Made by a program: the position numbers and the translations under genes. A stretch of DNA of 28,194 nt from a virus: positions 1 through 28,194 of IMG/VR virus record IMGVR_UViG_3300010354_000467; one strand, 5' to 3'. The notes beneath the pieces are model-generated. The model was not told where the DNA came from and did not search any database. It was given only the letters and a program-made list of their open reading frames with translations. Of the stretch, positions 1-23,889 are shown piece by piece; the first letter of the stretch is position 1, and each line of letters opens with the position of its first letter.

Positions 1-1083
1 AAATAGATTTTGATCTCTCAATTCAGAAACAATTGCGCTAATATTAACATCCATGTTAATAGGAACGTCAATTACTCTAGCGAAACCAAATGTATTACCA
101 AGTCTTTGTAGAATTGTTCTGCTGAGTGGCAATGTGAAACTAAATGATTGAACGTGAGCGTCTGTAAGATTTGTTAGACCTTCAGAAGTTGGAAGAGTTA
201 ATACAATATCACCGGGTCTCAAAGCGCTTACAGAACTAGTTCCAGTTGTAAATCCAGTGAAATTTACGCCAGCACTATCTTTAATAGCAGTACCTGTAAA
301 TTGTCTAGAATAATCAAGTTTATAACTAGTACCTACTGATGTAAATTTGGTAGCTGGTTGAGCTAAAATATTAATAGCTGGACTAAATCCAGTCATAGTA
401 ACTATGTCTGCTCCAACTACTGAATTTTGAGGAGCCGATCCTGAAGCTATAGAAACTGGAAGTTCAGTTGCGTCAGATTTAATATTAAAAGCTTCTACTG
501 TTATACTAGCAGTGGGAACTGCGCCAACAGCGGCTTCAAAAGCATATTCAGTTACGAAACCATTACCAATTCCAACTACTGTTGAACTTGGAGCTAATGT
601 TCCACCTACTACATCTTCGCCTTCATCTACAGTCAAAATATAGAAATTATTTCCTTGTAAATCAGCTAAAAGACCAGAAATAGCTTGAGCGCCATTTATA
701 GTGGTAGTATCTATTAATGCTCCAGCCCCGGCGTCTCCTGTGATGTTAAACCCTAACAATCTTTCATTATAACCATCTGTTACATAATAACTGAAATCCA
801 AACCAACTGTTGGGGATTCCATAACGATAGAATCAAGACGAGCTAGTTTGCCGAACTCGTTGATATCTTGTCTATTGATTGTAAAGTTGAAATTACAACT
901 TTGAATACGATCTAGTTTCTTAAGTAATGAAATACCAGAAGCTAGTGAACCTGTGCTAACAGGGGTAAATGGTGATGCAGTTGCTGATAAGCCATCTGCT
1001 GATACACCACTAACTTGTACTCCTGTAGAGCTAGGAGCTATAAATAAAGCCTGACTTTGGTAAATTACACGATTTCTTGCCAT
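1..1083 (-). CDS. Tail-tube-like structural protein (major tail protein candidate), C-terminus beyond the left edge
   Basis: Reading from the ATG at 1083 to the left edge gives 361 codons without a stop, so the gene is cut by the window. It starts MARNRVIYQSQALF and is rich in Thr, Ser, Gly and Val with almost no helix-forming stretches, as in beta-sandwich virion proteins. Three segments look like strands of a tube domain: residues 60-101 (IQSCNFNF to FSYYV), 178-200 (TEYAFEAAVGAVP to VEAFN) and 311-351 (VQSFSFTL to DVNISAIV). The first and third resemble each other, and all three have counterparts in the proteins at 13431 and 16073. It is the last visible gene of a leftward neck-to-tail series, the usual place for the major tail protein. 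No Shine-Dalgarno precedes the start. The tube role is inferred from fold-like pattern and gene order. A decoration or other virion protein is possible. Confidence 0.6.
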   Translation of the reverse strand, partial: MARNRVIYQSQALFIAPSSTGVQVSGVSADGLSATASPFTPVSTGSLASGISLLKKLDRIQSCNFNFTINRQDINEFGKLARLDSIVMESPTVGLDFSYYVTDGYNERLLGFNITGDAGAGALIDTTTINGAQAISGLLADLQGNNFYILTVDEGEDVVGGTLAPSSTVVGIGNGFVTEYAFEAAVGAVPTASITVEAFNIKSDATELPVSIASGSAPQNSVVGADIVTMTGFSPAINILAQPATKFTSVGTSYKLDYSRQFTGTAIKDSAGVNFTGFTTGTSSVSALRPGDIVLTLPTSEGLTNLTDAHVQSFSFTLPLSRTILQRLGNTFGFARVIDVPINMDVNISAIVSELRDQNLF

Positions 1084-1142
1084 ATGTTTTGTTTGTTAAA
1101 AAATGTTAATTATTTTTACAGTGTATAGGGAATATTGGGAAA
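1084..1142 (-). promoter_or_regulatory. Leader of the tail-tube-like gene with a TGTAAAAATA element
   Basis: This 59-bp gap lies between two minus-strand genes and has no ORF. On the minus strand it carries TGTAAAAATA (plus-strand positions 1111-1120), close to the T[AG]TAAATA element seen in the other larger gaps of the window. A run of T follows on the minus strand and then an A-rich segment up to the ATG, with no Shine-Dalgarno. Separate transcription of an abundant tail protein would make sense, but promoter function is inferred from position and resemblance only. Confidence 0.28.
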
Positions 1143-2003
1143 TTATAATCTTGGGTATCTATAAGTTTTTATGTTGAAATCTAAAAATCCGATGTGCAAA
1201 GTTGGATTCAATTCTTTAAGAACACTATCTCTAATTTTAGAGGTAACAACATGATCAATAAATAAAGTTTGATCACTATATTGTTTATTTACTACATTAT
1301 AATCATATCCAGTGGGATATAAACCTGTTTTTATTTCCCCGAATTCACCCAATGGATGTTTGGTCATAGGAACGACGCTAAAAACTTCATTATAACTATC
1401 TGCAAATATACTTAATAAACCATCTAATTGATATAGAGTTTCGCAAAATGCTACTAATTTTATATTACAATTTGTTTCATCTTCGCCGCCAAAAGCAAAT
1501 GCAGTATTATGAGTGTTTTCAATCGAAGCAAATATTGCTGGAGTTACTGGGTTGTATGGAGGAATATAATTTTCTGTAACAGTGTAGCGGCTATTGGTTA
1601 CATATTTATTTTCAATTATTAAATTATCTTCTGGTTGATCTGTTACATAACTATTTATTTCTTTAACTGTATATAGTCCGCTTACATTTAAAGTAGTGGA
1701 AACATTAGAGTCAAAGATCGCTCTTCCATTATCAAAATCTATAGCTAAACCGCTTGTTCCGGTTACTACGAAAGCGTTATCTATAGTGAGACCGCTTGGT
1801 ATTTGTGCGCCATTAATATTGTTGTCGTAAACCCATTGTTTATATGGCGATCCATATACGACTTTGTTTCCTCCAAGTCTAGGATCTGTATAGTTATAAA
1901 GCTTAGTATTTTTTATACTATATGCTTCTCCTTTGGTCATGACATAATTATCAAACCATAGAAAAAAACTATTTATAACATTATGCGAAAAATTTGGTTT
2001 CAT
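1143..2003 (-). CDS. Putative neck / tail-terminator region protein
   Basis: A 286-aa protein (MKPNFSHNVINSFF...) separated by one base from the gene upstream of it. The middle has a beta-rich stretch, GLAIDFDNGRAIFDSNVSTT, with the feel of a strand-turn-strand virion domain. The second half contains LVAFCETLYQLDGLLSIFAD, which looks helical and amphipathic, followed by a short beta-rich tail ending TYRYPRL. I do not recognise a named family with certainty. The third position of a head-closure, completion, terminator, tube series suggests a tail terminator or neck component. The length is above that of classical terminators (roughly 130-160 aa in lambda gpU and similar), so an added domain would be needed. 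Start chosen as the first ATG. The mRNA upstream of it is A/T-only (TTTAAATTAAA), with no ribosome-binding purine box. Confidence 0.42.
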   Translation of the reverse strand: MKPNFSHNVINSFFLWFDNYVMTKGEAYSIKNTKLYNYTDPRLGGNKVVYGSPYKQWVYDNNINGAQIPSGLTIDNAFVVTGTSGLAIDFDNGRAIFDSNVSTTLNVSGLYTVKEINSYVTDQPEDNLIIENKYVTNSRYTVTENYIPPYNPVTPAIFASIENTHNTAFAFGGEDETNCNIKLVAFCETLYQLDGLLSIFADSYNEVFSVVPMTKHPLGEFGEIKTGLYPTGYDYNVVNKQYSDQTLFIDHVVTSKIRDSVLKELNPTLHIGFLDFNIKTYRYPRL

Positions 2004-2004
2004 T

Positions 2005-2583
2005 TTAATTTAAATCTTTAAGTCTGCTTTCAAATCTACGAATAAGATCTGATATATATTTTGTGTTCCTAAATACCGCTCCGCTTCTTACTTTAGAAGT
2101 CGAACTTTGAACTCCCAATCCAGAGCGGCTATTTTTAACTTTTTTAAGATAATAACCTAATCCAGATATTCCAGATTCTATACCTCTAGCCCAACTTCTT
2201 CCTGTAGCCCAAGGCATAGGTGTTACATCGAATATCTCTTTAGTTGTTGGTATTTCAAACATCACTTGCGAAGAAACTCCGTTACTTGAATTTATTATTC
2301 TATATTTAGAAGATAATAATAATTCTCTAATTGGAGCGGTTGGATCGGTATTTTCGTCAAATCCTATGAATGAATATAAATTAGTAATACCTCCTAAAGT
2401 GCCAGAAATATTTTCGGCATATATGCCTCCTTTTATTTCTACAGTTACAGGATGTTCATCGAATTCTTTTATAATATCATCCTTGATTTTCTCAAAACGC
2501 TCTTTGATATAATCATTTTGGGTTTTGAGATATGTTGGATCTTTTTGCAATTGTTTAAGTAATTCGTAATAAGCTTTGTCCAT
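2005..2583 (-). CDS. Putative tail completion protein (HK97 gp10-like position)
   Basis: A 192-aa protein. Residues 1-45 form a charged helix-rich start (YYELLKQLQKDPTYLK...) ending in DDIIKEFDEHPVTVEI. Then comes GTLGGITNLYSFIGF, a Gly-rich turn typical of a beta domain, and a Trp-containing loop PMPWATGRSWARGIESG. The C-terminus is basic, with Arg/Lys-rich helix residues (SDLIRRFESRLKDLN). Small basic proteins of this length between a head-closure gene and a tube gene are usually tail completion or neck proteins of the gp10 type. The family assignment is from size, order and general composition, not from a diagnostic motif. It is one base away from the genes on both sides, which points to co-transcription and translational coupling in a leftward operon. 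Confidence 0.45.
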   Translation of the reverse strand: MDKAYYELLKQLQKDPTYLKTQNDYIKERFEKIKDDIIKEFDEHPVTVEIKGGIYAENISGTLGGITNLYSFIGFDENTDPTAPIRELLLSSKYRIINSSNGVSSQVMFEIPTTKEIFDVTPMPWATGRSWARGIESGISGLGYYLKKVKNSRSGLGVQSSTSKVRSGAVFRNTKYISDLIRRFESRLKDLN

Positions 2584-2584
2584 A

Positions 2585-3040
2585 TTATGGATCAGGTTTT
2601 AGATAAAGAGTGTAAAATTGATTATCAAATAGTCCATGACCTCTAAAAGCTGAATTGAGAACGAATCTCTTACCGTCTAAATCTATTCTTTTAGCATCTT
2701 TTATATATTCATAATCTGCGGCAGTTATTTTTAATCTAACACTGCCAACTACAGCTTCAAGCTTGATTTGTGTATTTAATTGGCCTTCGCTCCAATATTG
2801 TTTTTGGAAATCGTTGTTGTATAAAATTCTAGCTTTGAACGTCTGATAAACAGGTGTATTTATATATGAAGTCGTTTGACCAGCAGTATTATATAATGGA
2901 TTGAAGTTGGGATCTGTGATAATAACTACTTTAGATGCATCTTTAAAAACCGTGATGTCGCGAGCAAAAGTCTCATGAACATCCGCAATAACTGCGTTTA
3001 AAGCAGTTTTTTCAGAAGCAGTTAATAAACTCGTAGCCAT
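2585..3040 (-). CDS. Putative head-closure / head-tail adaptor protein
   Basis: A 151-aa protein, first gene of the leftward operon. Residues 1-45 look helical (LTASEKTALNAVIADVHETF), and the rest alternates hydrophobic and polar residues as in a small beta-barrel. Recognisable pieces are PVYQTFKARILYNN (67 onward), LEAVVGSVRLKITAADYEYI and KRIDLDGKRFVLNSAFRG. This layout matches head-closure proteins (SPP1 gp16 and head-tail adaptor types): a short helix and a barrel that turns a property of the input data into an oligomeric collar. The role in joining portal or adaptor to the tail is inferred from gene order with the completion, neck and tube-like genes after it. The mRNA upstream of the ATG is GTGTAAATATATTT, with no Shine-Dalgarno. 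The same sequence, bar one base, precedes the tape measure gene. Confidence 0.5.
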   Translation of the reverse strand: MATSLLTASEKTALNAVIADVHETFARDITVFKDASKVVIITDPNFNPLYNTAGQTTSYINTPVYQTFKARILYNNDFQKQYWSEGQLNTQIKLEAVVGSVRLKITAADYEYIKDAKRIDLDGKRFVLNSAFRGHGLFDNQFYTLYLKPDP

Positions 3041-3095
3041 AAATATATTTACACTAGTTGAAAAACGATAGAATATATATTATTATTTATAAAGT
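3041..3095. promoter_or_regulatory. Divergent promoter region between leftward neck genes and rightward tail genes
   Basis: These 55 bp lie between two genes reading away from each other, so promoters for both directions are expected here or in the gene ends. On the minus strand there is TATAAATA (plus positions 3084-3091) and TGTAAATA (plus positions 3046-3053), the latter ending five bases before the ATG at 3040. On the plus strand the sequence before the ATG at 3096 is TTATAAAGT. TATAAATA equals the T4 late promoter -10 element, but in DNA this AT-rich such octamers arise often, and they also occur inside genes here. Neither TAnnTTTG (the Bacteroidota -7 element) nor a clear sigma70 -35 is visible. 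Confidence 0.4.
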
Positions 3096-3875
3096 ATGGC
3101 TAAAGTTCTATATAGTTTTACAATTAAAAAGATTACAGAAGTAGAAGAGGAAAAGCAAGAAATCGTAAAAAACGATAATGGCGAAGACGTAACTAGAACT
3201 TATAAAGAGAAGATTAAGAAAGAAGTTCCAGTAGAAATTATAATCAATCAGCCAAACAGAAAACAAATGCAAGAAGCCGACATGGAATTCAGCGTTGAGA
3301 TGAGCCGCTGTATTAGAAATGGCGTATTGACAAAAGCTATGTTGCTCAATAAATATAATGATACAGGCGGATTGATCAGCGAGGCTGATGCAAAGACAAT
3401 GGTAAATTCAGCAGATGATATTCGCGAACTTCAAGCCAAACTAAGCATTCTTAATCTAAAGCCAGAATCAGAAAGAGATGAAGAAGATAAGTTGAAGATT
3501 GATACCATTACTTCTCAAATTCTACAACGTAGAAAAACTCTTATAGAAAAAGAAACTAGTTATTTAACTCTATTTAATCATACAGCAGATATCAAGGCTC
3601 AAAACAGAGCTATTTTGTGGTATGTATTGCATTTAAGTTATTATAAAGATTCTTCAAAAAAGAGTGCAGAACTTGAGCCACTTTTCCCCGGTAAAACTTT
3701 TGAACAAAAAGAAGCCACAATGTTTGATCATGAAGAAAATAAGCATGAAATTTATGAAAAGTGTTATAGCAAGTTAGCTAGTATTATTAGTTATTGGTTC
3801 TTCACCAGCAATCAAGATAAAGACGAATTCGATAGAATTGTGGGAGAAATAGATGGAACAATCCCAACAGAATAA
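3096..3875 (+). CDS. Putative tail assembly chaperone (G-like position)
   Basis: A 259-aa, strongly charged protein. Residues 1-53 alternate Lys/Glu-rich beta segments (KEKIKKEVPVEIIINQP). The remainder is helical: ADMEFSVEMSRCIRNGVLTK (62-81), then a long Glu/Lys helical region (110-165), then NHTADIKAQNRAILWYVLHL (172-191) and an acidic C-terminal tail. Tail assembly chaperones bind major tail protein and the tape measure during tube assembly and are not kept in the virion. They are placed just before the tape measure gene, as here. The assignment rests on this position, the following overlapping gene, and the charged helical composition. It is the first gene of the rightward operon. No Shine-Dalgarno is present before the start. 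Confidence 0.55.
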   Translation: MAKVLYSFTIKKITEVEEEKQEIVKNDNGEDVTRTYKEKIKKEVPVEIIINQPNRKQMQEADMEFSVEMSRCIRNGVLTKAMLLNKYNDTGGLISEADAKTMVNSADDIRELQAKLSILNLKPESERDEEDKLKIDTITSQILQRRKTLIEKETSYLTLFNHTADIKAQNRAILWYVLHLSYYKDSSKKSAELEPLFPGKTFEQKEATMFDHEENKHEIYEKCYSKLASIISYWFFTSNQDKDEFDRIVGEIDGTIPTE

Positions 3876-4848
3876 TTTTAAAAGGATATTTCGGGATATT
3901 AAAAATGGATTCTCTGAGATAAAGATCTTGGAGAATCTTTTTTATTTAAAGCATATGTCTTTCGAAGATCAAGTTGATATTGACTTGGTTTATGATAGAT
4001 ATTTAAGTCAAGCTATTAGTAAAGGCGTTCCAACGCATAAAGAAACTCTTGAAAGATTGATCGAAGAAGGCGAATGGTCCAAAAGAAAAGAAACGGAAAT
4101 AGCTCAACAAGAAGATTTTATTAAAAATCTTTTAAATCAAAAAAAATCATTATATTTGAAAGCAGAAATTTTGCGCCTCAACAAAGATATTGAAGAAGGC
4201 CAAAATAAATTAAATAGTTTGAAAAATGCTAGAGCTATGTTTTTTTCTAGAACTGCGGAATCTTATGCTGAAGAAAGATTAAATGATCATTATATTTTGA
4301 AGTGTTTATATAAGAATAAAAAATTAGAAGAACCAGTATATTCTGAAGAACAATTTGATGAAGTAGATTCTGAAAATCTATTTTTTATAATGAAAGAGTA
4401 TACCCGCGTTTACAAAGAAATAAATGATGACAATATTCAACGAATTGTATTGCAAGATTTTTATAATTTATATTTACCATTTGCAGAGAGTCCTACAGAG
4501 TTTTATGGAAAACCTATTTGTGATTTATCTTATAATCAGTTAAAGTTATTAGTATATTCGCGATTCTTTAAAAATATATTTCAGCAGAATCAAAACATGC
4601 CTCAAGATATTAAAAATGATCCTGATAAAATCATGGATTATGTTAATGCTAATGAGAATGTTAAAAAAGTGAGAGAAAGAAATAGCAATAAAGAAAACTC
4701 CGCTGAATCTATTGTTGGAGCTACTAGAGAAGACCTTGAATATCTAAATATAGCCAAGCCGGGGCAAAAAACTCTATCGTTAGCTGAAGAAGCGAAGAAA
4801 AAAGGCGGCTCTCTTTCTATGGACGACATGATGAAATTATTCGGATAA
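3853..4848 (+). CDS. Putative second tail assembly chaperone / pre-tape-measure protein
   Basis: A 331-aa, mostly helical protein that begins inside the last 23 bases of the previous gene. A stop (TAG) abuts its ATG, so the frame is not open further upstream. Residues 80-135 form a probable coiled coil (QQEDFIKNLLNQKKSLYLKA and the segment after it). Residues 160-245 are helix-rich with many aromatic residues. The C-terminus is KKGGSLSMDDMMKLFG. In lambda and many siphophages the second chaperone is made by ribosomal frameshifting from the first. Here this frame is +1 (or -2) relative to the first, and I find no -1 slippery heptamer in the overlap, so independent initiation is more likely. 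GGGAG sits seven bases before the ATG, the only Shine-Dalgarno-like sequence in the window. It is inside the upstream coding sequence, so it may be chance. Confidence 0.5.
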   Translation: MEQSQQNNFKRIFRDIKNGFSEIKILENLFYLKHMSFEDQVDIDLVYDRYLSQAISKGVPTHKETLERLIEEGEWSKRKETEIAQQEDFIKNLLNQKKSLYLKAEILRLNKDIEEGQNKLNSLKNARAMFFSRTAESYAEERLNDHYILKCLYKNKKLEEPVYSEEQFDEVDSENLFFIMKEYTRVYKEINDDNIQRIVLQDFYNLYLPFAESPTEFYGKPICDLSYNQLKLLVYSRFFKNIFQQNQNMPQDIKNDPDKIMDYVNANENVKKVRERNSNKENSAESIVGATREDLEYLNIAKPGQKTLSLAEEAKKKGGSLSMDDMMKLFG

Positions 4849-4876
4849 TGTCGTATTTAAGGTGTAAATATTATTT
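4849..4876 (+). promoter_or_regulatory. Tape measure gene leader with TGTAAATA element
   Basis: This 28-bp gap precedes the tape measure ATG. It contains TGTAAATA at 4863-4870, six bases before the start codon, and no Shine-Dalgarno. The stretch GTGTAAATATTATTTATGGC matches the sequence before the head-closure gene on the other strand except for one inserted T. If the octamer is a promoter -10 element, the transcript would begin at or next to the ATG and be leaderless. It could equally be a conserved translation-initiation context. Confidence 0.33.
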
Positions 4877-7800
4877 ATGGCGGGACCACAAATCAACGTT
4901 CAAGCTAATCAAGCAGCTTTAGTATCCTCTATTCAAGCGGGAATTACTGCTTATAACCAGCGTTTTGCGAATCAAAATCAAATCAATTTACAAGTAAATG
5001 CCAGAGGATTTTCCCAACCATTGGGAAGAATAACTGGTGATGTAAAAGATTTCGAATCCGCATTGGCCGCGTCTAACGCTCGCGTAGTTGCATTCGGAGC
5101 TTCTACAGCCGTACTTGGTGGTGTAATAAGAAGTTTCAAAGAAATAGTAAATGTTACTATTGAAGTAGAAAAGAATCTAGCAGATATTAATCGCGTATTC
5201 GGTTTAAGTACCGCTCAGTTGCAAAAATTTAGTTCTGCGCTTTTTGAAGTTAGTAAAGCCACATCGTCTTCATTTGGGGAAGCTTCAAAAGCCGCTCTTG
5301 AGTTCTCTCGTCAAGGTATCAAGGCTGAAGAAGTTCTTCAAAGAACAACTGATGCTCTTTTATTAGCAAAATTAGGCGGACTAAGTACTGCAAACGCTAT
5401 TGATGCTTTGACCGCTTCTGTAAATGGATTTAAAAATACAGGTATAACTACTACTCAAATTTTAAATAAGTTAGTAGCAGTAGAACAAAACTACGCTGTT
5501 GGTGCTGGTGACCTTGCTGAAGCTCTATCTCGTACAGGTCAGGCTGCGCAAGAAGCTGGAGTTAATATTGATCAATTGAATGCCTTAGTTACAGCAGCTC
5601 AAGAAAAAACCGCTCGCGGTGGTGCTGTAATTGGTAACGCTTTAAAAACAATTTTTACTCGTTTACAACGTCCAGAAACTTTAGATCAATTAGAAACGTT
5701 TAATATTAAAGTTCGTGACATTGAAGGAAATGTATTGCCAGCTATTACAATACTTAAAAACTTTTCAAGTGTTTATGGAGAATTAGCTGATACACAACGC
5801 GCTGCGCTTTCAGAACAAGTTGCTGGTGTTTATCAAGTTAACATTCTTAAAGCTATAGTAGGTGATTTGAATAGCGAACAAAGTGCGTACAATGGAGCAT
5901 TAAGAGATGGAACTAATGCTACAAATGAAGCTCAAGTAGCTGCCGCTAAACTTAATCAGACTTTAGATGCCTTAGTATCTCAAACGGGAACTGCTGCACA
6001 ACAGTTTGCTAATAATATTGGTCAAGTAACTTTTGAACCATTAGCTAAATATACCGCTCAGACATTTAAATCAATTTTTGAAAATTTAAACGATCTATTA
6101 GAAGGCGAAGGAATTGGATCTGTATTTGCTAATGGATTTTTGAAAGGAATCAGAAATATAATTGCTGGTCCCGGCGCAATTGCTGCATTCTATACATTAT
6201 TTAAGTTAATACAAAACTCTTTTAACTTCTTGACTCAGGCTTTGCCTCAAATTGCAGGTATTACTACAGAGTCTCAAAAAAGAAAAGATATTGAGGCTAG
6301 TGTTTTAAGAATATTACAACAAGAAGGTCCGTTAAGACAAGCTTTATTGGGTTATACTGGTAATCAGGCTGCACAAGCTCAATTATTATTAAATGCTGCT
6401 AAAGCTCAAACAGCAGAATATCAACAACAATTACAAATTGCTCAAAGATTAGCTCCATTGTTGGCTACTAAAGGCATTGTTGTTAATCCAAAATCTGGAC
6501 AAAAAGGACTTGCTGCGACAAGAAGTTCTGGATATATACCAAAAATTACTAAGATGGCTGAAACTATCGGCGCACAAGCTGGTGGTTATTCTCCCGGTCA
6601 AGTTGTTCGTTCTCCTGTTGGTGGAGTAATGAATACCGCAGAAGATGTAAAGTATATTCCCGGTTTTGCTCAACCTTTTATTAATCCTCCTGCTGGATCA
6701 AAAGCTGGTCGCGCTCATAGACAAAGATCAATACAACAAACTGGTGTTGATCCATATATGGCGGCTAAAGGATTTATTCCTAATTTTGCTTATAAAAATT
6801 TTGGATTTAAAAATAATTTATTAAATTTAAACGAACAATCGATAGCAGATTTTAGTTATCCTGCTTATTTTGAAAATAAAAATTTAGCAGACGGAGGTTT
6901 AGATAAAAAGGGGAATAGAAATAATATTTATGATTCTGTATCAGGAGTTGTTGAAAGAATTCCTTTTATTAATAAAGAAAGACTTAATCGACAATCTAAA
7001 AAATATTTTGAAGATTATTTAAATAATAAACAAGTTCCTACAATAGTTAAAAACTCTTATGATAGAGCTTTTAATAAAATTAAAACCTTTTATGGAGGAT
7101 TAGATGAAAAAAGTGTTAAACTGCAAATGTTTGATAAATTTAAGAAAGGTAATAATGGAGATTTTTATAATTTTAGAGGTTCTTTGTATGAATCTTTAGT
7201 TACTAAAAAAGTTGGAAATAATTATAATCTTTCTAATTCAGAATATTCTAGATCTGATTTATTACCAATAAACGCAGAAGATGCAAGTTTATTTACAGGT
7301 ATCGAAGCTAAATCAGGAGGTACAGGAGGAAATTGGAAAATATTACAAAAAGCAATTGAAACTGCGGTAAAACAAAAACAAACTCAATTCAATGATGATG
7401 GTTATGATGATATTGATATAGGTAGATATGCATTATATCAAACTTATAATAAAGGTTATATACCAAATTTTGCCGATATGTCTATGTCTCAAATTGCCGC
7501 CGCCGTTCGTTTGGGAAAAATGAGCGAAGCCGATGCAAGAGCAATGGGTTGGAAGCCCACTTCAGAAAAAATTGCTGAAAGAAAAGGAAGAGTCGCGCAA
7601 GAAAAAGCTGATAAATTAGCAGGTATTTCTTATAAGAATATCGACGTTCCTTGGAAGACTTATGATGAGTTTGGCGGAACAAATTATGATTATGGCGCTG
7701 CTTATGAAAAGCATGCTTTAAGCGTTTTAAAAGCAAAATATCCTACAATTCAGGACGCTATTTCTGCTGGTATTCCCGGTGGTCCAAGTTCAAGAGTTGA

Positions 7801-10800
7801 CGCTTTAGATAAAACAACAAAAACATTTTTTGAGTTCAAAGGCGGCGATCCAACAACTCCTGCCGAATTGATGGCTAAATTTAAAGGAGTAAGAGTTCAG
7901 CTTGTTGACAAATATCGAAAAGAATTAGATACATGGAATGATGTATTAGTCTCTAATCCTAATTGGGGATACTCACAGGGATTTATTCCTAACTTTGCTG
8001 ATTTAGATAGTGGCGCTCGTAGTATGCTTGTTAGTTCTGGAATAGTTCCTTTTGTTGTAGATCTACAAAGAAAAACAATGGCCGCTAGTTCTGCTGGCGA
8101 TGACATGTTTCATTCTCAAATTGTAAATAAAAAATTTATTGATCCAGTATCAGGAAAACCTATTTATCCAAAATTGTACGGTGATGACATTCATAGTGCC
8201 GCTTGGAAAGATATTTTTGTTAGAGGATTTGTAGATTCAAGTACTGGTAAAGTTAATTTTGATTTGACTGCTCCACAAAAAGCAGACAAACAATTTTTAT
8301 CTAAGCACTCTGTTTTATTAGAAAAAGTAAAACAAAAATATGCTGAAAAATTCAAATCAGCTATTCAGGTAAAACCAAGAAGAGTTTCTCCATTAGCTGC
8401 GTTTAGAAGTGGTGGCTTTATTCCTAATTTTAATTATCAAAAATCCGTAATGGGATTAGAAGAAAGATTAAGTGGTAATAAAGCTATATTAGATACTAGC
8501 AGCGGACCTTTTCCATTTATAAGAAATAGTGGTCAGCCTAATTTTGCTGCTGCCGTTGCAGATCATGGAGGCTTGACTCAAGCTTTGAACGATTCAATGA
8601 CAGGACAAAAAGCTGCTGGTTTGATGTATAAAGGATATGTTCCTAATTTTGCAGATTTTGACATAAGAGGAACTCCGTTGCAATCACAAAAAGGAGGAGC
8701 AGTAAGTTATAATAAAATAAATGCAACTATAAATAAATATGTCGATGATCTAAAAAAATCAGGCGATTTAGTTAATAAAACTAATATTGAATTTGCAGCA
8801 GAAATTAAAGCATTATTACCATCGTTAAAACTTAATCAAAAAAGTTTTAATGAAGTTCAGAGAGCGGCTATTGATTATGCGAAAGCAGAAAAACAGGCAA
8901 CAATTCAAAGAAATGCGGAAAGAGATGCGAGATATCAAAGAAGATTTGGTCCACAAACTGGCACTGTATTTGAAAGAATTGGAGGAAGTATTGGTGGAAT
9001 TCGCGGTAGACGAAATGCAGGAAATTTAGAAAGAAGACTTGGAGGATTAAGTAATAATGTTGGTTTTCAATTAGGCGCTCCAATTGTTGGAGGTGTTTTA
9101 GAAGAAGCGATAACTGGTGGCAAAGACAGATCTCAATTATCTACTGCACAAAGATTTGCAGGAAATGCGGCTAGTTCTGTGATAACTGGTATTAGTACAG
9201 GTGCCGCATTAGGAACCGCTTTCGGTGGACCGGGAATAGGAACTGCTGTAGGAGCAGTCATTGGATTAGGAAATGCTGCGCTTCAAGCTCAAGAAAGCGT
9301 TCAAGATTTAGCAAATGCCGCAGATCAATATAAAGCTCAAACAACAGCTACAATGGATGCTGGTAAATCTTATATTGAGCAACTAAATCAATTATCTAAC
9401 ATATCTGATCCTTCTTTATTGAATCAAGCTTTATATAAATTAGGAGAAACATTTGATGATATAAATAAAAATTCTCCAGAATTAGGTCGTAAATTTTATG
9501 AAGCTGGTGGAGATGTTGAAAAAATGCAAAAAGCTATTCAAGATTTTAATAAAGAAACAGTTACGGTATTATCAGCAAAAAGATTATCTGCCGCTTTATC
9601 TCAATTAGAAATTTCTATTTTTACCGGTAGTTCTAAAACATTGAAAAATCTTAAAAAGAGTGGTTATGATACAGTTGAAAATAAAATTTCAAATTTTGGT
9701 AAAGATGAAATCATTAAAACCGAAGGAAGCCTACAAACATCTTTTGTTAGATTTCAAGGTTTTTTTGAACTTTTAAAAGAAGGTGGATTGACAGCAGAAA
9801 ATTCTGCAAAATTTATTGAAGAATTTCAAAAAGAATTACAAGGAGCCACAAGCGAATCTGATCTGAAAGCTATTGCTGAAAAATATAATATAACAGAAAC
9901 TGTAGCAACAGAACTTGCAAAACTATCTGATAATGTTATAGATGAAATGGGTCCAGAAGGAAAATTTTTTATTCAAAATAGCGTTGAATTGGTGAAGAGA
10001 TTTTATAATGAAACAGATAAAAAGTTTAAAACAGCTACTCAACAAGCTAAAGAACTACAATTTAATTCACGCGAATTGTTGCGTAAATTGCGCGATGGTA
10101 TAGATAATTACGTCTTTAACATAGCAAAACAAATTCAACAAAAAGAGTTTGAAGCATCACGTTTAAATGTTTTAGACAATGCGGCAAGTGAATTTATAGA
10201 TAAATTAGTTACTCCTCTTCAAGCTGGAGCTAGACAAGCTGAAGCAAAAATACGTCAAACTTCTATTTCTCAAGAAACAGAAAGAATGCGTTTATCTTCC
10301 GATATAGCTGGAGCTTCAGGAAAACAAATTTTCGAAACATTAGGAGGAGGAAACAAAGAAATTATCGAAGGGCTACAAAAAACGGTTGATAATTTACAAG
10401 ATCCAAATCTTTTAGAAAATACATTAAGATCTTTAGTACAACAAACTTCTTCTGCACAAGCTGCTAAAGAAGCTGGTTTTAAAATTGGTGATCCAGAAAA
10501 ATTAGCGACATTTAATGCCCAATTAAAACAACAGTTGCAAAATACTATAATGTTGTCTGATAAACAGAAACAGCAGAATCAATTAGTTGAATTAGAAATA
10601 ACATTACTTCAAAGAAGATCTGAAGCCGCTCAGATTATGCTTGATTTAGAATATCAATTGATGGAATCAGAGTTGGCAAGAAATGTTCAATTAAATAAAT
10701 CAGCTTCAGATAGAGAAATACAAACAGCAAGAGAAAAAGCTATTTTTGAAAGACCGGGATATGGATTTGGTATGTCTCCTCAACGCATTCAAGCTGAAAA

Positions 10801-13429
10801 GGCTACATCTCAAAAAACTGAATTGCAAAGAAATCAACAAACAGCAAGAGAAAATATTTTTGCTGGTGGTGCTGATTTTCTTAGAAGTCAAACTACAAAA
10901 TTATCAGTTGATTTAAAAAATTCTTTGCAGACTCAATTAGATCAATTATCTTTAGCTAATCCAAATTTTGAAGGATCTATACAAGATATAGCTTTGCGTC
11001 CCGATTTATTTTCTAATTTAATACCTGAGAGTTTTGATAAAGAACTTTATAATAGAACTTCTGCCGCTTTAAGTGGATTAAGTCAGATTTCTATAACAAA
11101 TTTTGACTCAATCAAAGATTATGAGCAAAAGCTTTTAGAAGTAAAAGGGGTTTTAGGTCCTATTTCTGAACAAAATAAAGGCATTTATGATTCAATAAAT
11201 AAACAATTAGAATCTGTTTCTAGATTAAATATTTTACAATCCAAAGAATCTTTCGAATTAGAAATTAGCCTTGAAACTCAGAAATTAATCGCTGAACAAG
11301 CTGGAAAAACTAATGAATTTTATAATCAAAGATTACAAACTCTTTTAGAGACCGCTGATGCTGAACAAAAAGCCGCTGATGCTTTGGAAGTAAGTTTACA
11401 AGCTTTAGATACAAGACAATCTAGAGAATCTAATTTTTATGGTCTTGGAGTAATGGGTAAGGCTGCAAGTCAAGTAGATCTTAATAATCAAAGACTTGCA
11501 ATACGTCAACAACAAACAGCCCAACAAAATCTTTCAGGAGCGAGAGGTGCAGTAAATGAGTTTGCAACATATCAAAATGAAATAGCAAATTTAAAAGGTC
11601 CTATAAGTTTAGATAGAGTAAAAGCAAAAAATGCTATTGCTAATATTAATACTGAAATAAAAAATCTTGATGATGCTAAAGCTTTTGCTGATAATCTAGC
11701 TAAAGCGAGAAATTCTTTAGATTCTAGCTCTGAAGATGCTAAAAAACTTGCTGGTTTTGAAAATCAAGTAAGAGGAATTTTACAGAAAAATACTTCTGAA
11801 CTCGAAAAACAAAAAGCAATTCAAGATCTTATCAATAAAGGAGTAGCAGATGAAGCTAGTGATAGAACTTCGATGTATCAAGGTTTTAGATCAGGCTTTG
11901 ATGATTTAATTACACAAGGTGACGAAATAGGGCATAAGTTAGGCAAAGAAATTCCCGGTATGTTTGCTGATGGTATGACGAATGCATTAATGGATGTTGC
12001 TAGAGGAACAAAATCAATAGGTGACGCTTTCAAAGATGTTGCTATTAATTTTGGTCAAACTTTGATGCAAGAAGTGATGAGAGCAGCTATTGGTAAAGCA
12101 TTGGGAACCGTTGGTATGGGCTTATTTGGTGGAAATCAAAAAGGCGGTTTGATTCATGCTCAAAATGGTATGTACATAAGCGGAGGAAGAAATGGCGACC
12201 GTAATCTTGCGTTATTAGAAGATGGTGAATATGTATTAAATAGAAACGCTGTAGAATCTTTTGGTGGCCCCGGCGTATTGGATAAAATTAATTATGATAT
12301 GGCTCCAAGATTTGGCAGTAAAATGCAGGGCGGTGGATCTTTTGAATTGGCTCCAGAAATGCAGTATAATAAAGATCAAGAATTTGATTATACTGGTAAT
12401 CTAATGAGTGGCGCTACTAATGTTGGACAAATTGATCAAGCTAATTATACAGCTTATGCATTTGCTGAAGATGCGTATTTCAAAAAAATGCGTGAAAAAG
12501 CAGTTCAAGATGAACAAGAAAGAGTACAAAAAGAATTCGCTAAAAAACAAAAGAACGCTCAATTGATTAGTAGTATAGTTGGTGCTGTTGGAAGCATAGC
12601 ATTAGCTGGTGGTATGGGCATGGTAGCTGCTAAATCAGCCGCAAGTGCTGGTGCTGAAGGTTTAAAACAGGCAGGTGCAGCGTCTGTTAGTTCGTCAGCA
12701 TCTGTCGCTACGAAAGAAGCGTTTGCAAAAGCTCAAGAAGCTGGAGGTAAAACTTTTGCTGAATTTTTAAAAGCTAATCCTAATGATGTTTTAATAAATG
12801 GTAAATTATTAGCTAATCTTAATGTTGCTAATCAAATGGCAAGTGGTGTAAATCCTTTGAAAATATCTGGTGGATTTGGAAGATTTGGCGGTGATGCACA
12901 ATTGAGCAATATATTGACTCAACAAGGTTTTGGTCCAGTAAAATCCGCAACTTCTGGTTTATTTGGTAATATATTTACAACAGGAGCGGGAGTTGTCGGA
13001 AGTAATGTAAGAAGAGGTCGTCAAACTGGTGGTTTGGTTGGATTTAATAGTGGTGGATTTGTTCCTTATGGTTCTAGATTATCAGATACAATTCCAGCGT
13101 TGTTAACCGGAGGTGAATATGTAATGAATAATTCAGCGGTTAAAAAATATGGATTGTCTACAATGAATTCTATGAATTCTGGATCGTATCAAGACGGAGG
13201 TTCAACTGCAACTACAAATAATAGTACAAATAATAATGCTACAAATATTTCTATCAATATTGATAAATCAGGTAAATCTGTTTATGGCGCAGATAGTTCT
13301 AGTTATGAAAAACAAGATATTGTATTGAGCAAACAAATGGCTAAACAAATCAATTCTGTTGTATTGAAAACTATGTCCAATGAAAAACGTTACGGTGGTG
13401 AATTATATAAAAATCCATTAAGAAGCTAA
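4877..13429 (+). CDS. Giant tape measure protein with inserted nuclease-like modules
   Basis: A 2850-aa protein that would set tail length. Residues 1-430 match the PhageMin_Tail/TP901 tape measure domain in style (VAFGASTAVLGGVI, SFGEASKAALEFSRQG, AQEKTARGGAVIGNALKTIF). A hydrophobic stretch follows (427-465). Residues 552-1259 are modular, with five copies of [KQG]G[FY][IV]PNF starting at 631, 859, 1034, 1179 and 1252 and weaker forms at 552 and 592. Modules at 640-858 and 867-1033 look like PD-(D/E)XK nucleases. A glycine-rich hydrophobic segment (about 1399-1470) could span a membrane. Residues 1480-2330 are Gln/Glu/Lys-rich predicted coiled coil. The C-terminus has two ALLxxGEYVxNxxAV motifs (2445 and 2741), common in tape measure C-termini, and an Asn/Thr-rich tail. 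At about 1.5 angstrom per helical residue the whole chain would correspond to roughly 430 nm, an upper limit because the modules are folded. Confidence 0.93.
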   Translation: MAGPQINVQANQAALVSSIQAGITAYNQRFANQNQINLQVNARGFSQPLGRITGDVKDFESALAASNARVVAFGASTAVLGGVIRSFKEIVNVTIEVEKNLADINRVFGLSTAQLQKFSSALFEVSKATSSSFGEASKAALEFSRQGIKAEEVLQRTTDALLLAKLGGLSTANAIDALTASVNGFKNTGITTTQILNKLVAVEQNYAVGAGDLAEALSRTGQAAQEAGVNIDQLNALVTAAQEKTARGGAVIGNALKTIFTRLQRPETLDQLETFNIKVRDIEGNVLPAITILKNFSSVYGELADTQRAALSEQVAGVYQVNILKAIVGDLNSEQSAYNGALRDGTNATNEAQVAAAKLNQTLDALVSQTGTAAQQFANNIGQVTFEPLAKYTAQTFKSIFENLNDLLEGEGIGSVFANGFLKGIRNIIAGPGAIAAFYTLFKLIQNSFNFLTQALPQIAGITTESQKRKDIEASVLRILQQEGPLRQALLGYTGNQAAQAQLLLNAAKAQTAEYQQQLQIAQRLAPLLATKGIVVNPKSGQKGLAATRSSGYIPKITKMAETIGAQAGGYSPGQVVRSPVGGVMNTAEDVKYIPGFAQPFINPPAGSKAGRAHRQRSIQQTGVDPYMAAKGFIPNFAYKNFGFKNNLLNLNEQSIADFSYPAYFENKNLADGGLDKKGNRNNIYDSVSGVVERIPFINKERLNRQSKKYFEDYLNNKQVPTIVKNSYDRAFNKIKTFYGGLDEKSVKLQMFDKFKKGNNGDFYNFRGSLYESLVTKKVGNNYNLSNSEYSRSDLLPINAEDASLFTGIEAKSGGTGGNWKILQKAIETAVKQKQTQFNDDGYDDIDIGRYALYQTYNKGYIPNFADMSMSQIAAAVRLGKMSEADARAMGWKPTSEKIAERKGRVAQEKADKLAGISYKNIDVPWKTYDEFGGTNYDYGAAYEKHALSVLKAKYPTIQDAISAGIPGGPSSRVDALDKTTKTFFEFKGGDPTTPAELMAKFKGVRVQLVDKYRKELDTWNDVLVSNPNWGYSQGFIPNFADLDSGARSMLVSSGIVPFVVDLQRKTMAASSAGDDMFHSQIVNKKFIDPVSGKPIYPKLYGDDIHSAAWKDIFVRGFVDSSTGKVNFDLTAPQKADKQFLSKHSVLLEKVKQKYAEKFKSAIQVKPRRVSPLAAFRSGGFIPNFNYQKSVMGLEERLSGNKAILDTSSGPFPFIRNSGQPNFAAAVADHGGLTQALNDSMTGQKAAGLMYKGYVPNFADFDIRGTPLQSQKGGAVSYNKINATINKYVDDLKKSGDLVNKTNIEFAAEIKALLPSLKLNQKSFNEVQRAAIDYAKAEKQATIQRNAERDARYQRRFGPQTGTVFERIGGSIGGIRGRRNAGNLERRLGGLSNNVGFQLGAPIVGGVLEEAITGGKDRSQLSTAQRFAGNAASSVITGISTGAALGTAFGGPGIGTAVGAVIGLGNAALQAQESVQDLANAADQYKAQTTATMDAGKSYIEQLNQLSNISDPSLLNQALYKLGETFDDINKNSPELGRKFYEAGGDVEKMQKAIQDFNKETVTVLSAKRLSAALSQLEISIFTGSSKTLKNLKKSGYDTVENKISNFGKDEIIKTEGSLQTSFVRFQGFFELLKEGGLTAENSAKFIEEFQKELQGATSESDLKAIAEKYNITETVATELAKLSDNVIDEMGPEGKFFIQNSVELVKRFYNETDKKFKTATQQAKELQFNSRELLRKLRDGIDNYVFNIAKQIQQKEFEASRLNVLDNAASEFIDKLVTPLQAGARQAEAKIRQTSISQETERMRLSSDIAGASGKQIFETLGGGNKEIIEGLQKTVDNLQDPNLLENTLRSLVQQTSSAQAAKEAGFKIGDPEKLATFNAQLKQQLQNTIMLSDKQKQQNQLVELEITLLQRRSEAAQIMLDLEYQLMESELARNVQLNKSASDREIQTAREKAIFERPGYGFGMSPQRIQAEKATSQKTELQRNQQTARENIFAGGADFLRSQTTKLSVDLKNSLQTQLDQLSLANPNFEGSIQDIALRPDLFSNLIPESFDKELYNRTSAALSGLSQISITNFDSIKDYEQKLLEVKGVLGPISEQNKGIYDSINKQLESVSRLNILQSKESFELEISLETQKLIAEQAGKTNEFYNQRLQTLLETADAEQKAADALEVSLQALDTRQSRESNFYGLGVMGKAASQVDLNNQRLAIRQQQTAQQNLSGARGAVNEFATYQNEIANLKGPISLDRVKAKNAIANINTEIKNLDDAKAFADNLAKARNSLDSSSEDAKKLAGFENQVRGILQKNTSELEKQKAIQDLINKGVADEASDRTSMYQGFRSGFDDLITQGDEIGHKLGKEIPGMFADGMTNALMDVARGTKSIGDAFKDVAINFGQTLMQEVMRAAIGKALGTVGMGLFGGNQKGGLIHAQNGMYISGGRNGDRNLALLEDGEYVLNRNAVESFGGPGVLDKINYDMAPRFGSKMQGGGSFELAPEMQYNKDQEFDYTGNLMSGATNVGQIDQANYTAYAFAEDAYFKKMREKAVQDEQERVQKEFAKKQKNAQLISSIVGAVGSIALAGGMGMVAAKSAASAGAEGLKQAGAASVSSSASVATKEAFAKAQEAGGKTFAEFLKANPNDVLINGKLLANLNVANQMASGVNPLKISGGFGRFGGDAQLSNILTQQGFGPVKSATSGLFGNIFTTGAGVVGSNVRRGRQTGGLVGFNSGGFVPYGSRLSDTIPALLTGGEYVMNNSAVKKYGLSTMNSMNSGSYQDGGSTATTNNSTNNNATNISINIDKSGKSVYGADSSSYEKQDIVLSKQMAKQINSVVLKTMSNEKRYGGELYKNPLRS
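6794..7450 (+). other. Tape measure module 1: PD-(D/E)XK nuclease-like domain
   Basis: Residues 640-858 of the tape measure protein, between the first and second IPNF motifs. The pattern is RGSLYESL with Glu772, then SRSDLL with Asp794, then GIEAKSG with Glu810 and Lys812, giving D-x15-E-x-K. A Gln/Lys helix follows (ILQKAIETAVKQKQ), as in many members of this fold where a Gln lies in the helix after the catalytic strand. The DNA is about 25% G+C by my hand count, against about 39% for the next module, which fits separate origins. Catalytic activity is inferred from these residues only. Confidence 0.55.
7475..7975 (+). other. Tape measure module 2: PD-(D/E)XK nuclease-like domain
   Basis: Residues 867-1033 of the tape measure protein, between the second and third IPNF motifs. 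After a short helical region the module shows GAAYEKHALSVL with Glu944, SSRVDAL with Asp975, and FFEFKGG with Glu986 and Lys988, giving D-x10-E-x-K. The following helix has VRVQLVDKYRKEL with a Gln in the expected position. This is the cleaner of the two nuclease signatures: the Glu helix, Val-Asp strand, ExK strand and Gln helix are all present and in order. Enzymatic activity and target are not shown by the sequence. Confidence 0.6.
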
Positions 13430-21695: not shown

Positions 21696-23573
21696 ATGTC
21701 TGATCTATTCTTATTAAAAAATACAGAGATAATAGATTTGTTTGAAATCAAGATTAATGATTATGAGGGTTATTTACGCTTTCATGGATCTAAAAATTTT
21801 GATAAAGATATTGTCTTCAAAGGTCAGACTTATTTATTTATACCGTCAGAAATTTCAAATTTAGAATATACTTCAGAAGGCAAACAAAGTCGCCCAACTT
21901 TGTTAATTTCTAATGTTAATAATTTTATAACTAATTTTATAAAAGATCGTAACGATCTATTGGGTTGTAGGTTTTTTAGAAAAAAGATTTTAGCGAAAGA
22001 TTTAGATGATATAAATTTTGGAGGATCTAATAAAAATACTTTGGGGCAAAATACTTTTACGTCTTTTATATCTAATGATACTTTTATAATTCAAAAGAAG
22101 AATTACGAACAAAAAGACAAAGTAGAATTCGTTTTAGCTAATATTTTAGATATAGATGGATTAACAGTTCCAACTAGAAAAGTATATAATGATTCTTGTC
22201 AATGGCAGTATAGAGGTTGTGGTTGTAATTATGGTAAAATAAATGGTTATAAAGGTCCTTCTGTTGCAATAGGTTCATATACATATACAGCTTTAGAAAC
22301 AGTAAATAGCGATTATTCTTTAACGTCTAATTTAGTAGGATGGTTTAAGCCAAACGATTCTACAAATCCAAGCGTTCAGACTTTTAGTGGAACGGTTTCA
22401 GTTAAAGAGTATCCTAACAATAAAGATTTAATATTCGATAAGTTAACTGCTTGGGCGACTGCTGCTGGTTCAGCAACTGTTACTTTAACAAATAGTCCTA
22501 AAAAATATGTAAACGTCAATAGACTAAATAATAATACTGGAATATTATTTACTCAAAATTGGCCCCAAAATCTTTGGGACACAATGCAGATAAATTTGGA
22601 TTTTCAAACTACTCCACAAAATTGCACTATCTTTTATGTATCAGAGTTAGTCAATAAAGTTTTCAAAACTAAAAAGGGAAATGATGGATTATGTGCAAAT
22701 GGAGGTATAGCTAGAAGAGGTTTGACGACTAATGGGGCAAGTGGTAATAATTTTTTATTAGGTTGGCATGCTGGATATGAGGATGTTTTATATGTAAACA
22801 AATGGATTACGCCTGTTAAGGCTATTACTTCTTGCCCATTCATAAATATTCCTAGAGTATATGGAGCTGTTTTACCTACATCAGCGACTGAAAAAACTAT
22901 TTTTTATAGAGATGGAAATAAAATTATTGAACAAACGGGGGTGACTGGAAGACCTAAAAATTTTGGTATTAATCTATGTTCTAACGAGCAAAGTGAAATT
23001 GTTGTATATGAAGTCATTGTTTACAACACTATTTTAACTGGTGATCAAGTTAAAGCTGTAAGTTCTTATTTGGCATCAAAGTATAAAACTCCGATTTCTT
23101 ATAATATAATAAAAACAATTAATAAACAGAGCATTGATTATTTTACTGGTTATGATGATGGAAACTTGGGTGTTCCAATGGCAGATGAAAATAATAAAGT
23201 GTTTTTGAAAAATCAACCTTCTACTTTTATTAATTATGAATCTTATGAATTGACTGACCTAGTATATAAGGGCGATTATGATAATACAATTCCTTATACT
23301 CAAGGAGATTTTGTTAAAATAGATCCATCTTTGGATTATGATTTCAATGAAAAAGTTATATTTAATAATTTAGAAATACCATCTAAATTCTTTGTTTGTG
23401 TAGGGCCATCTGCAAGTGGTCAGCATCCATTTCAATACACAAACATTTGGAAAGAAGATAAATGCTCCAAAAATTTAAATGGTTGTTCTTTAAGATTTAA
23501 AGATCCTAATGTTAATGTTCCTTTTGGAGGATTTCCCGGCACAATTGGTTATGACTACAGACTTCCCGGTTAA
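21696..23573 (+). CDS. L: gpL-like tail-tip protein with lectin domain inserted in its cysteine domain
   Basis: A 625-aa protein. Residues 1-165 follow the lambda gpL N-terminal pattern (VEFVLANILDIDGLTVPTRK before the first cysteines). C168, C175 and C177 (CQWQYRGCGCNYG) and C590 and C597 (KCSKNLNGCSLRF), with terminal VPFGGFPG, are the gpL C-terminal signature. Lambda gpL is known to carry an iron-sulfur cluster on conserved cysteines. Here these two halves are about 410 residues apart. The insert contains a LamG-like lectin (208-464: NLVGWFKPND start and VYNTILTGDQVKAVSSYLAS end) and then a small CBM-like motif (YDNTIPYTQGDFVKI). Lambda gpL has 232 aa, so the excess is the insertion. It overlaps the K-like gene by 23 bases at its end. 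Fe-S binding is inferred from the conserved cysteines. Confidence 0.78.
   Translation: MSDLFLLKNTEIIDLFEIKINDYEGYLRFHGSKNFDKDIVFKGQTYLFIPSEISNLEYTSEGKQSRPTLLISNVNNFITNFIKDRNDLLGCRFFRKKILAKDLDDINFGGSNKNTLGQNTFTSFISNDTFIIQKKNYEQKDKVEFVLANILDIDGLTVPTRKVYNDSCQWQYRGCGCNYGKINGYKGPSVAIGSYTYTALETVNSDYSLTSNLVGWFKPNDSTNPSVQTFSGTVSVKEYPNNKDLIFDKLTAWATAAGSATVTLTNSPKKYVNVNRLNNNTGILFTQNWPQNLWDTMQINLDFQTTPQNCTIFYVSELVNKVFKTKKGNDGLCANGGIARRGLTTNGASGNNFLLGWHAGYEDVLYVNKWITPVKAITSCPFINIPRVYGAVLPTSATEKTIFYRDGNKIIEQTGVTGRPKNFGINLCSNEQSEIVVYEVIVYNTILTGDQVKAVSSYLASKYKTPISYNIIKTINKQSIDYFTGYDDGNLGVPMADENNKVFLKNQPSTFINYESYELTDLVYKGDYDNTIPYTQGDFVKIDPSLDYDFNEKVIFNNLEIPSKFFVCVGPSASGQHPFQYTNIWKEDKCSKNLNGCSLRFKDPNVNVPFGGFPGTIGYDYRLPG
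22317..23087 (+). other. LamG-like lectin insertion in the gpL-like protein
   Basis: Residues 208-464. The start YSLTSNLVGWFKP and the end VIVYNTILTGDQVKAV with SSYLASKYK match the typical edges of phage-encoded LamG domains. The same edges appear in the M-like protein (GLIAWF; LSETEIDYYEKYLFEKY). The insert sits between the CNYG and KCSKN halves of the cysteine domain, so the two halves must be brought together in the fold. The inserted module would sit on the outside of the tail tip. Confidence 0.55.
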
Positions 23574-23889
23574 TAATGATATCTTAGATCTATTGATATA
23601 TAAATCAGCGAATTCAATAAATGAAATTTGCGGATTTTTGATTAAAAAAAATGGAGTCTATGACTCTTTCAAAGAATGCTCTAATATACATCCTGATCCG
23701 CAGAATTATTTTTTGATATCTCCAAAAGAATGTATTTTTGATGGCGATCCTATATTATTTCATAGTCATCCAATAAGTTCAGATTTGGAAGGATTTTCAG
23801 AATGGGATTTGGAAAATCAACAATACTTTTATTTACAAATGCTAGTCTATAGTGTAAAGAATAATAAGTTTTATTATAAATCGATATGA
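23551..23889 (+). CDS. K: K-like JAMM (JAB/MPN) metalloprotease, short form
   Basis: A 112-aa protein. Glu25 in NEICGF, His71 and His73 in HSHP, and Ser83 and Asp86 in FSEWD form the zinc-site pattern of the JAMM family. Lambda gpK has this domain followed by an NlpC/P60 peptidase domain. Here the gene ends straight after the JAMM part. The spacing between the second His and the Ser is nine residues, where seven is usual. The first ATG of this frame is at 23509, but the JAMM domain starts at about residue 7 from the ATG at 23551, so I prefer that start. It overlaps the end of the L-like gene by 23 bases and shares ATGA with the next gene. The role is tail-tip maturation or cell-wall entry, inferred from lambda. 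Confidence 0.75.
   Translation: MTTDFPVNNDILDLLIYKSANSINEICGFLIKKNGVYDSFKECSNIHPDPQNYFLISPKECIFDGDPILFHSHPISSDLEGFSEWDLENQQYFYLQMLVYSVKNNKFYYKSI

Follow-up and report, generated by a model that had tools for sequence, protein, structure and literature searches.

What are two nuclease-like modules doing inside the tape measure protein (TMP) of a phage? The question was raised by an earlier note on IMG/VR record IMGVR_UViG_3300010354_000467, an entire virus record of 28,194 bases that is called the window here. The note described two PD-(D/E)XK nuclease-like modules within one long open reading frame (ORF, 4877-13429) and proposed that they were either cargo acting in the host or inactive structural inserts. 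This ORF is a TMP, as judged from its family matches (PhageMin_Tail and also phrog_4211, E 4.6e-47) and its tail gene context, with 5 of the 10 neighbouring ORFs scanned matching tail families, tail fibre J among them. We found that both modules belong to an array of modules bounded by a repeated heptapeptide. Our reading, to which we assign a probability of about 0.62, is that modules 1 and 2 are PD-(D/E)XK nuclease domains and a standard part of a swappable enzyme array carried in the TMP to the host.

Exchange of whole modules at a repeated heptapeptide

The heptapeptide G[FY][IV]PNFA (once ending in N) occurs in five copies between residues 632 and 1259 of the window TMP. This repeat was absent from the earlier note's description, which had put the modules at residues 640-858 and 867-1033. 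Both modules stand, with limits shifted to 638-859 and 866-1034 by the heptapeptide copies at 632, 860 and 1035. Viral (IMG/VR) contigs were searched with a back-translated motif pattern including the preceding K, yielding 113 stretches, and with a second motif pattern, yielding at least 120 stretches, part of them already in the first set. At the first 113 loci, 448 of the 454 motif copies found in ORFs of at least 150 amino acids (aa) sat in ORFs with two or more. After contained ORFs were removed (230 to 199), at least 199 ORFs or pieces carried the motif. At least 185 ORFs or ORF pieces had two or more copies (up to 11), although some of the 185 are possibly pieces of one gene, such as L156 and L181 on one contig. 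Loci L130-L140, gaps outside 26-520 aa and contained ORFs were left out of this set. Single-motif ORFs were set aside as well (14, of which 4 were complete, including L229 with 2226 aa and L080 with 1699 aa). The 59 complete ORFs therefore comprised 55 with two or more copies and the 4 left aside, and long ORFs with a single motif (L229, L080) do exist outside the 55. Between the motif copies lay at least 483 distinct modules, which formed 90 to 113 clusters under different linkage rules, and 98 clusters had a member of 100 aa or more.

The carrier of these arrays was constant. The N-terminal part of the window TMP was matched by 142 of the 185 array ORFs, by 123 of the 126 of those with at least 300 aa before the motif, and by all 55 complete ORFs, in which the first motif copy stood at about residue 531-650. 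These 55 fall into 15 groups at 70% identity, and because of this kinship they are not independent draws. Chance was rejected as the origin of the motif, as the K-prefixed pattern gave 113 viral stretches compared to 11 in a genome collection of 257 billion bases, where the motif lay within an ORF of at least 100 aa at 4 of the 11 loci and always as a single copy. The array as a feature of cultured phages was also rejected. Five array queries had no match in the phage collection, while full-length TMPs matched it through the N-terminal part (best 40 of 144 and best 15 of 157 rows), to which the matches were confined among those listed. No paper mentioning the heptapeptide sequence was found in the literature searched. 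Among the 725 motif copies every Gly and every Pro codon (four each) occurred, as did both Asn codons. As synonymous sites vary among copies, the heptapeptide looks to be selected as a peptide and not as a DNA site, and it would serve as a linker, possibly a processing or docking site.

Module exchange was evident when the window was aligned to the related locus L001. Window 293-6790 was 97.5% identical to L001 in DNA, ending on the last base of motif copy 1. The module 1 region had no DNA match in L001, and identity was back from the opening base of copy 2 (7454). Window 7454-7996 was 95.4% identical and ended inside copy 3, module 3 was again unmatched, and the alignment restarted at 8413, one base ahead of copy 4. 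The L001 array consists of six segments, two of them common to the window, module 2 (98%) and the closing segment (92% protein identity). The same was seen across 490 TMP gene pairs, with 903 of 1017 internal alignment ends falling at most 9 nucleotides (nt) from a motif, compared to 102 expected at random array positions. Alignment ends are not independent and binning by query was used as a control, which placed 244 of 311 ends near the motif compared to 31 expected. These counts leave out alignments below 80% identity or 200 nt, and as the motif itself is conserved an alignment may run past the true junction by as much as the 21 nt of the motif. Comparison of the arrays thus shows whole modules exchanged by recombination at the motif borders. 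Mosaic TMPs have been flagged previously, not confirmed as recent exchanges, in the available part of PMC10684548. The modules were under purifying selection, with ratios of nonsynonymous to synonymous substitution (dN/dS) of 0.11 and 0.18 for module 2 and 0.35 for module 1.

Behind the array, the TMP differed from L001 in a second stretch. Window 8660-8929 was unaligned, 8930-10879 aligned at 79.5% and the sequence was unaligned again until 11312, making 8660-11311 a second variable zone relative to L001, which is otherwise 97.5-97.7% identical.

Nuclease-type residues and the standing place of nuclease-like modules

The residues E772, D794 and E810-x-K812 of module 1 and E944, D975 and E986-x-K988 of module 2 were located exactly where the earlier note had placed them. 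In module 2 the four residues were invariant in 9 of 9 sequences, several of which were near-duplicates (the distant ones share 32-36% identity with the window), and all four were among the 14 invariant columns of 173 (hypergeometric 2.8e-5). D978, G990, K1001 and F1002 were also fixed. The joint AlphaFold2 model of both modules placed E944 in a helix (939-954), followed by a two-residue strand (959-960), a strand beside D975 (976-978), a strand carrying E986 and K988 (983-988), a helix (995-1013) and a strand (1021-1026). The predicted core of module 2 therefore runs alpha-beta-beta-beta-alpha-beta, the PD-(D/E)XK order, with block confidence (predicted local distance difference test, pLDDT) of 56-80 and a first strand of two residues. 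A second look with VIA-align at 240 chains ranked by Foldseek returned Holliday junction resolvases and a VRR_NUC domain in rows 2-7 (Z 5.5-4.6), and Vsr, R.BspD6I, DdmD, a phage exonuclease, cap-snatching endonucleases and unrelated proteins in later rows. Of these we take the Holliday junction resolvases, VRR_NUC, Vsr and R.BspD6I to be members of the PD-(D/E)XK superfamily. As middling Z scores are common, the structural matches of the module 2 model are support and not proof. A viral structure library gave no E under 1e-3, and its nuclease-like rows (TnsA, a restriction enzyme, DUF559 and Vsr) were only suggestive. PDB sequence matches to a lectin and a ribosomal protein were rejected as chance.

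For module 1, all four residues are kept in three members, the window's own and two that are 76% and 27% identical to it. An iterative profile search from module 1 reached 124 modules in 20 clusters, with D794 and G768 in all 124, K812 in 120, E772 in 117 with D in the other 7, and D (76) or E (47) at position 810, placing the four catalytic-type positions among the most conserved columns of the family. Because iterative expansion favours motif matches, the largest BLAST-linked cluster (83 modules) was aligned alone, and D and K were present in 83 of 83 and E in 79 of 83. The profiles matched none of 2243 motif-free ORFs and none of 4830 shuffled modules. A loose E/D/ExK regular expression matched 212 of 483 modules, indicating that the residue pattern alone is weak. 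Module 1 was modelled poorly in the joint model and only partly better alone with 69 alignment rows (mean pLDDT 62). Lack of conservation in homologs, part of what the earlier note would have counted as refutation, was not seen, the acidic residues and the Lys being among the best-kept columns in both module families. Its Gln helix did not hold up. The residue kept in the helix is K/Q825 in module 1 (K in 102 and Q in 19 of 124) and K1001 in module 2, where Gln1008 is present in only 3 of 9 sequences.

Nuclease-type modules were close to universal among the arrays. A third type, N4, had E, D, E or D before xK, and K each in 24 of 24 sequences, and an N1 (module 1 type), N2 (module 2 type) or N4 module was present in all 55 complete ORFs with two or more motifs. 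A motif-independent sample of 73 loci was collected via the N-terminal part alone, of which 49 coincide with ORFs from the first set or are nested with them. Two or more motifs were found in 71 of the 73, the other two ending at the contig edge, and N1, N2 or N4 in 67 of 73 and in 63 of the 65 with a 3' end. The two exceptions, L291 and L293, each showed E, D and ExK in two modules when read by eye. Among the 24 new loci, 20 carried N1, N2 or N4 and the other 4 ended short at the 3' end.

These modules also followed an order. The two leading large modules of 17 complete ORFs formed a pair ending in N2 or N4, with slot 1 filled by N1 in 8, by an SNase-type cluster in 5 and by a cluster termed x11 in 4. 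Two more ORFs with N2, L001 and L128, were arranged differently. SNase (PF00565) was matched above the cut-off in L123 (E 1.9e-9) and L122 (E 1.8e-9), and since SNase-cluster modules fill slot 1 in relatives, the slot held by module 1 is one that a curated nuclease family also occupies. The x11 modules (L061:5310-5846 and five relatives) were N1-like by eye with D-A-H or D-A-Y replacing DxK, and are perhaps a variant or inactive form.

The remaining cargo was scanned using 119 module representatives against Pfam. A GNAT match was found in L077 (22.8 bits, cut-off 20.7, E 7.2e-5) and P-loop matches were weak (AAA_30, E 3.3e-4, below cut-off). A cluster of 24 modules (L104:3065-3613, L012 module 1) showed the P, G, G and K of a nucleotide-binding loop in 24 of 24. 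Two chains gave examples of apparently mixed kinds, with SNase beside N2 in L123 and a P-loop-cluster module beside N1 in L012. PADLOC matches to modules were weak (best 7.5e-4), NCBIfam matched one module to a calcium-activated nuclease (6.5e-5) and had other scattered matches, and PHROGs gave one endonuclease (3.8e-4) and two families without description (8.4e-12, 2.2e-7). HAD-like, ART-like and metallopeptidase-like modules are readings by eye, and the examples of them that were scanned matched no such Pfam family. Most of the other module kinds rest on weak matches or on reading by eye.

Several results weigh against the nuclease array reading. Modules 1 and 2 matched no Pfam or PHROG family below E 0.1, the PDB sequence search gave nothing convincing for either, and Foldseek against the PDB returned nothing significant (E 0.64 or worse) for a joint model with a mean pLDDT of 48. 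The top VIA-align row for module 2 was a protein of unknown function (Z 6.0) and unrelated folds began at row 8. Module 1 was modelled as helices and two strands with the ExK strand not formed, and its sole VIA-align row was a cap-snatching endonuclease at Z 2.8. In the module 1 family 4 of 124 rows lacked the Lys, and the preference of iterative expansion for motif matches bears on a family whose members are as little as 11% (median 19%) identical to the window. Members of the SNase cluster can miss the Pfam cut-off (L202, E 0.014) or show no SNase match (L005). In one pair the N-terminal part was under stronger constraint than module 2 (dN/dS 0.03 vs 0.11). Release, folding in the virion and delivery of the modules are as yet proposals. 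On balance, nuclease-like character as claimed in the earlier note is retained for module 2 on conservation, predicted element order and weak structural matches. For module 1 it is retained on conservation and on the slot common to SNase-type modules, with a predicted fold of low confidence. The structure prediction that the note had called for gave the core element order in module 2 and failed to do so in module 1. Taking sequence and models together, assignment as nucleases, with a PD-(D/E)XK fold and catalysis, is likely.

Proposed delivery, alternatives and related systems

The array is placed behind the conserved N-terminal part of the TMP (about 530-650 aa) and ahead of a long C-terminal part, with modules bounded by G[FY][IV]PNFA, and phages trade whole modules by recombination at these borders. 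We propose that the modules travel with the TMP out of the tail and that, as the genome enters, they act in the cytoplasm of the host, nuclease modules on defence nucleic acid or on the DNA of the host or of competitors, and other modules on host proteins or metabolites. GNAT and P-loop enzymes depend on cofactors found in the cytosol, pointing to a cytoplasm as the site of action. Travel into the host is likely, since a TMP belongs to the virion and exits the tail at infection, as reported for lambda, whose TMP touches inner-membrane proteins and was labelled by TurboID-ManZ during injection (PMC13190303, available part). The proposal of the earlier note that the modules are cargo acting in the host fits the array as seen in these sequences.

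Three alternatives were weighed. The modules could be inactive, serving as structural or DNA-binding inserts that, for example, hold the leading genome end in the tail. No activity is known for the modules, and some depart from the motif (x11, by eye, with DAH or DAY for DxK). This second option of the earlier note is made less likely by the catalytic-type residues, which rank with the best-conserved positions of three module families. Array length was 244-1063 aa in 54 of the 55 complete ORFs and 2307 in L115, and it was not compensated by the length of the C-terminal part (Spearman +0.26, p 0.054; 55 complete ORFs), so that the array as part of a length ruler was rejected. With the array not ruler-like in this respect, we consider inactive inserts improbable. 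We judge equally improbable that the modules are ordinary late enzymes or regulators of the producing cell, made within a TMP polyprotein incidentally. The gene sits among tail genes and would be expressed late, and the heptapeptide could serve as a processing site; an active nuclease would endanger phage DNA in the producing cell, however, and placement inside a protein that would leave the tail is hard to explain otherwise. Least probable is that the nuclease modules are in-frame homing-type selfish elements that cut module-free alleles and spread by repair with others hitchhiking: homing endonuclease genes are reported to break up TMP genes of phages and to lie at boundaries of exchange (PMC10448857, in the part available), exchange here ends at module borders and nearly every array examined has a nuclease-type module, but the modules lie in one continuous open frame under purifying selection, the same borders also delimit modules of other kinds (SNase, P-loop and GNAT, and by eye HAD-like and ART-like), and the heptapeptide varies at synonymous sites, leaving no obvious cut site. 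A near-obligatory nuclease of changing type would fit an arms race better than a housekeeping task, a core role being the less favoured reading.

The best reading is of a polymorphic effector array borne by the virion, in which nucleases are standard cargo. TMPs are usually regarded as rulers and channels with an occasional cell-wall hydrolase, and some carry enzymatic domains such as peptidoglycan hydrolases. A TMP with such an enzymatic domain was reportedly described by Piuri and Hatfull in 2006. To our knowledge the peptidoglycan hydrolase of TMPs is a cell-wall enzyme, not a nuclease, and does not sit in an exchangeable array. In CDI and Rhs toxins, swapping takes place beside a short conserved peptide. 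Polymorphic toxins, including the MuF toxins of temperate phages, resemble the array in joining a constant delivery part to highly variable effector domains (PMC5576092, available part). In our arrays a constant carrier is likewise combined with exchangeable modules that appear effector-like. They differ in that the carrier is a TMP and the cassettes are internal and several per protein, with sequences that come from IMG/VR contigs. Polyvalent proteins of phages and conjugative elements hold several disparate enzyme domains in one chain and are predicted to enter the host with the DNA (PMC5512222), a combination that our arrays would share. In the available text of that source they are tied to the phage head or to conjugation, and the word 'tape' is absent. 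Sle1-type effectors of contractile injection systems combine a TMP-related part with a diverse functional domain, one of which presumably acts on nucleic acids (PMC13277306). There the functional domain is C-terminal, the carrier is a bacterial nanomachine, and no heptapeptide array is reported in the part available. By analogy, the nearest systems would be polyvalent proteins and MuF toxins in logic and Sle1-type effectors in carrier. Within the literature searched, which covered journals and preprints in part, neither nuclease modules nor heptapeptide arrays were found described for TMPs.

More broadly, and tentatively, at slightly under even odds, the TMP may serve as a polymorphic effector carrier in a large phage group known through metagenome contigs. 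It would always hold at least one nuclease, would be threaded into the host together with the genome or before it, and would settle the opening contest with resident phages or the defences of the host, its modules being traded at the heptapeptide. If true, TMPs would act as a platform that delivers effectors into bacteria, their module clusters, about 100 in number and nearly all without known function, would make up a new catalogue, and there would be a direct route to ask what phages do to the cell in the first seconds.

Features of the window and further observations

The features of the TMP gene are collected in Table 1.

Table 1. Features of the TMP gene in the window, in nucleotide positions, with residue numbers of the TMP where given.
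Feature	Position	Strand	Remarks
TMP ORF	4877..13429	+	2850 aa
PhageMin_Tail domain	5246..5827, aa 124-317	+	E 3.9e-26
Heptapeptide copy 1, GFIPNFA	6770..6790, aa 632-638	+	L001 DNA homology ends at 6790
Module 1 (N1 type, PD-(D/E)XK-like)	6788..7453, aa 638-859	+	no L001 DNA match here
Module 1 residues	E772 7190-7192, D794 7256-7258, E810 7304-7306, K812 7310-7312	+	
Heptapeptide copy 2, GYIPNFA	7454..7474, aa 860-866	+	L001 homology restarts at 7454
Module 2 (N2 type, PD-(D/E)XK-like)	7472..7978, aa 866-1034	+	
Module 2 residues	E944 7706-7708, D975 7799-7801, E986 7832-7834, K988 7838-7840	+	
Heptapeptide copy 3, GFIPNFA	7979..7999, aa 1035-1041	+	L001 homology ends at 7996
Module 3, no assigned function	7997..8413, aa 1041-1179	+	relatives in L042, L069
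Heptapeptide copy 4, GFIPNFN	8414..8434, aa 1180-1186	+	L001 homology restarts at 8413
Short array-closing segment	8432..8632	+	cluster holds 42 other modules
Heptapeptide copy 5, GYVPNFA	8633..8653, aa 1253-1259	+	L001 alignment ends at 8659

The module 3 region (window 7976-8430) had no family match in the Pfam and PHROG scans, and profile comparison of module 3 added relatives among L069 and L001 modules. Downstream, a small tail protein is encoded at window 23509-23889, its start overlapping the end of the 21696-23573 ORF, and matches PHROG tail families. By eye this protein has an HSHP followed by S..D and the look of a JAMM-type peptidase, making it a possible candidate for a processing enzyme of the array. 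Arrays were also seen in longer contigs, at L125:5406-16307 (about 71 kb) and L018:1-6138 (about 164 kb), in other or larger TMP-like ORFs, and on the evidence of these two contigs the array trait may cross phage lineages.

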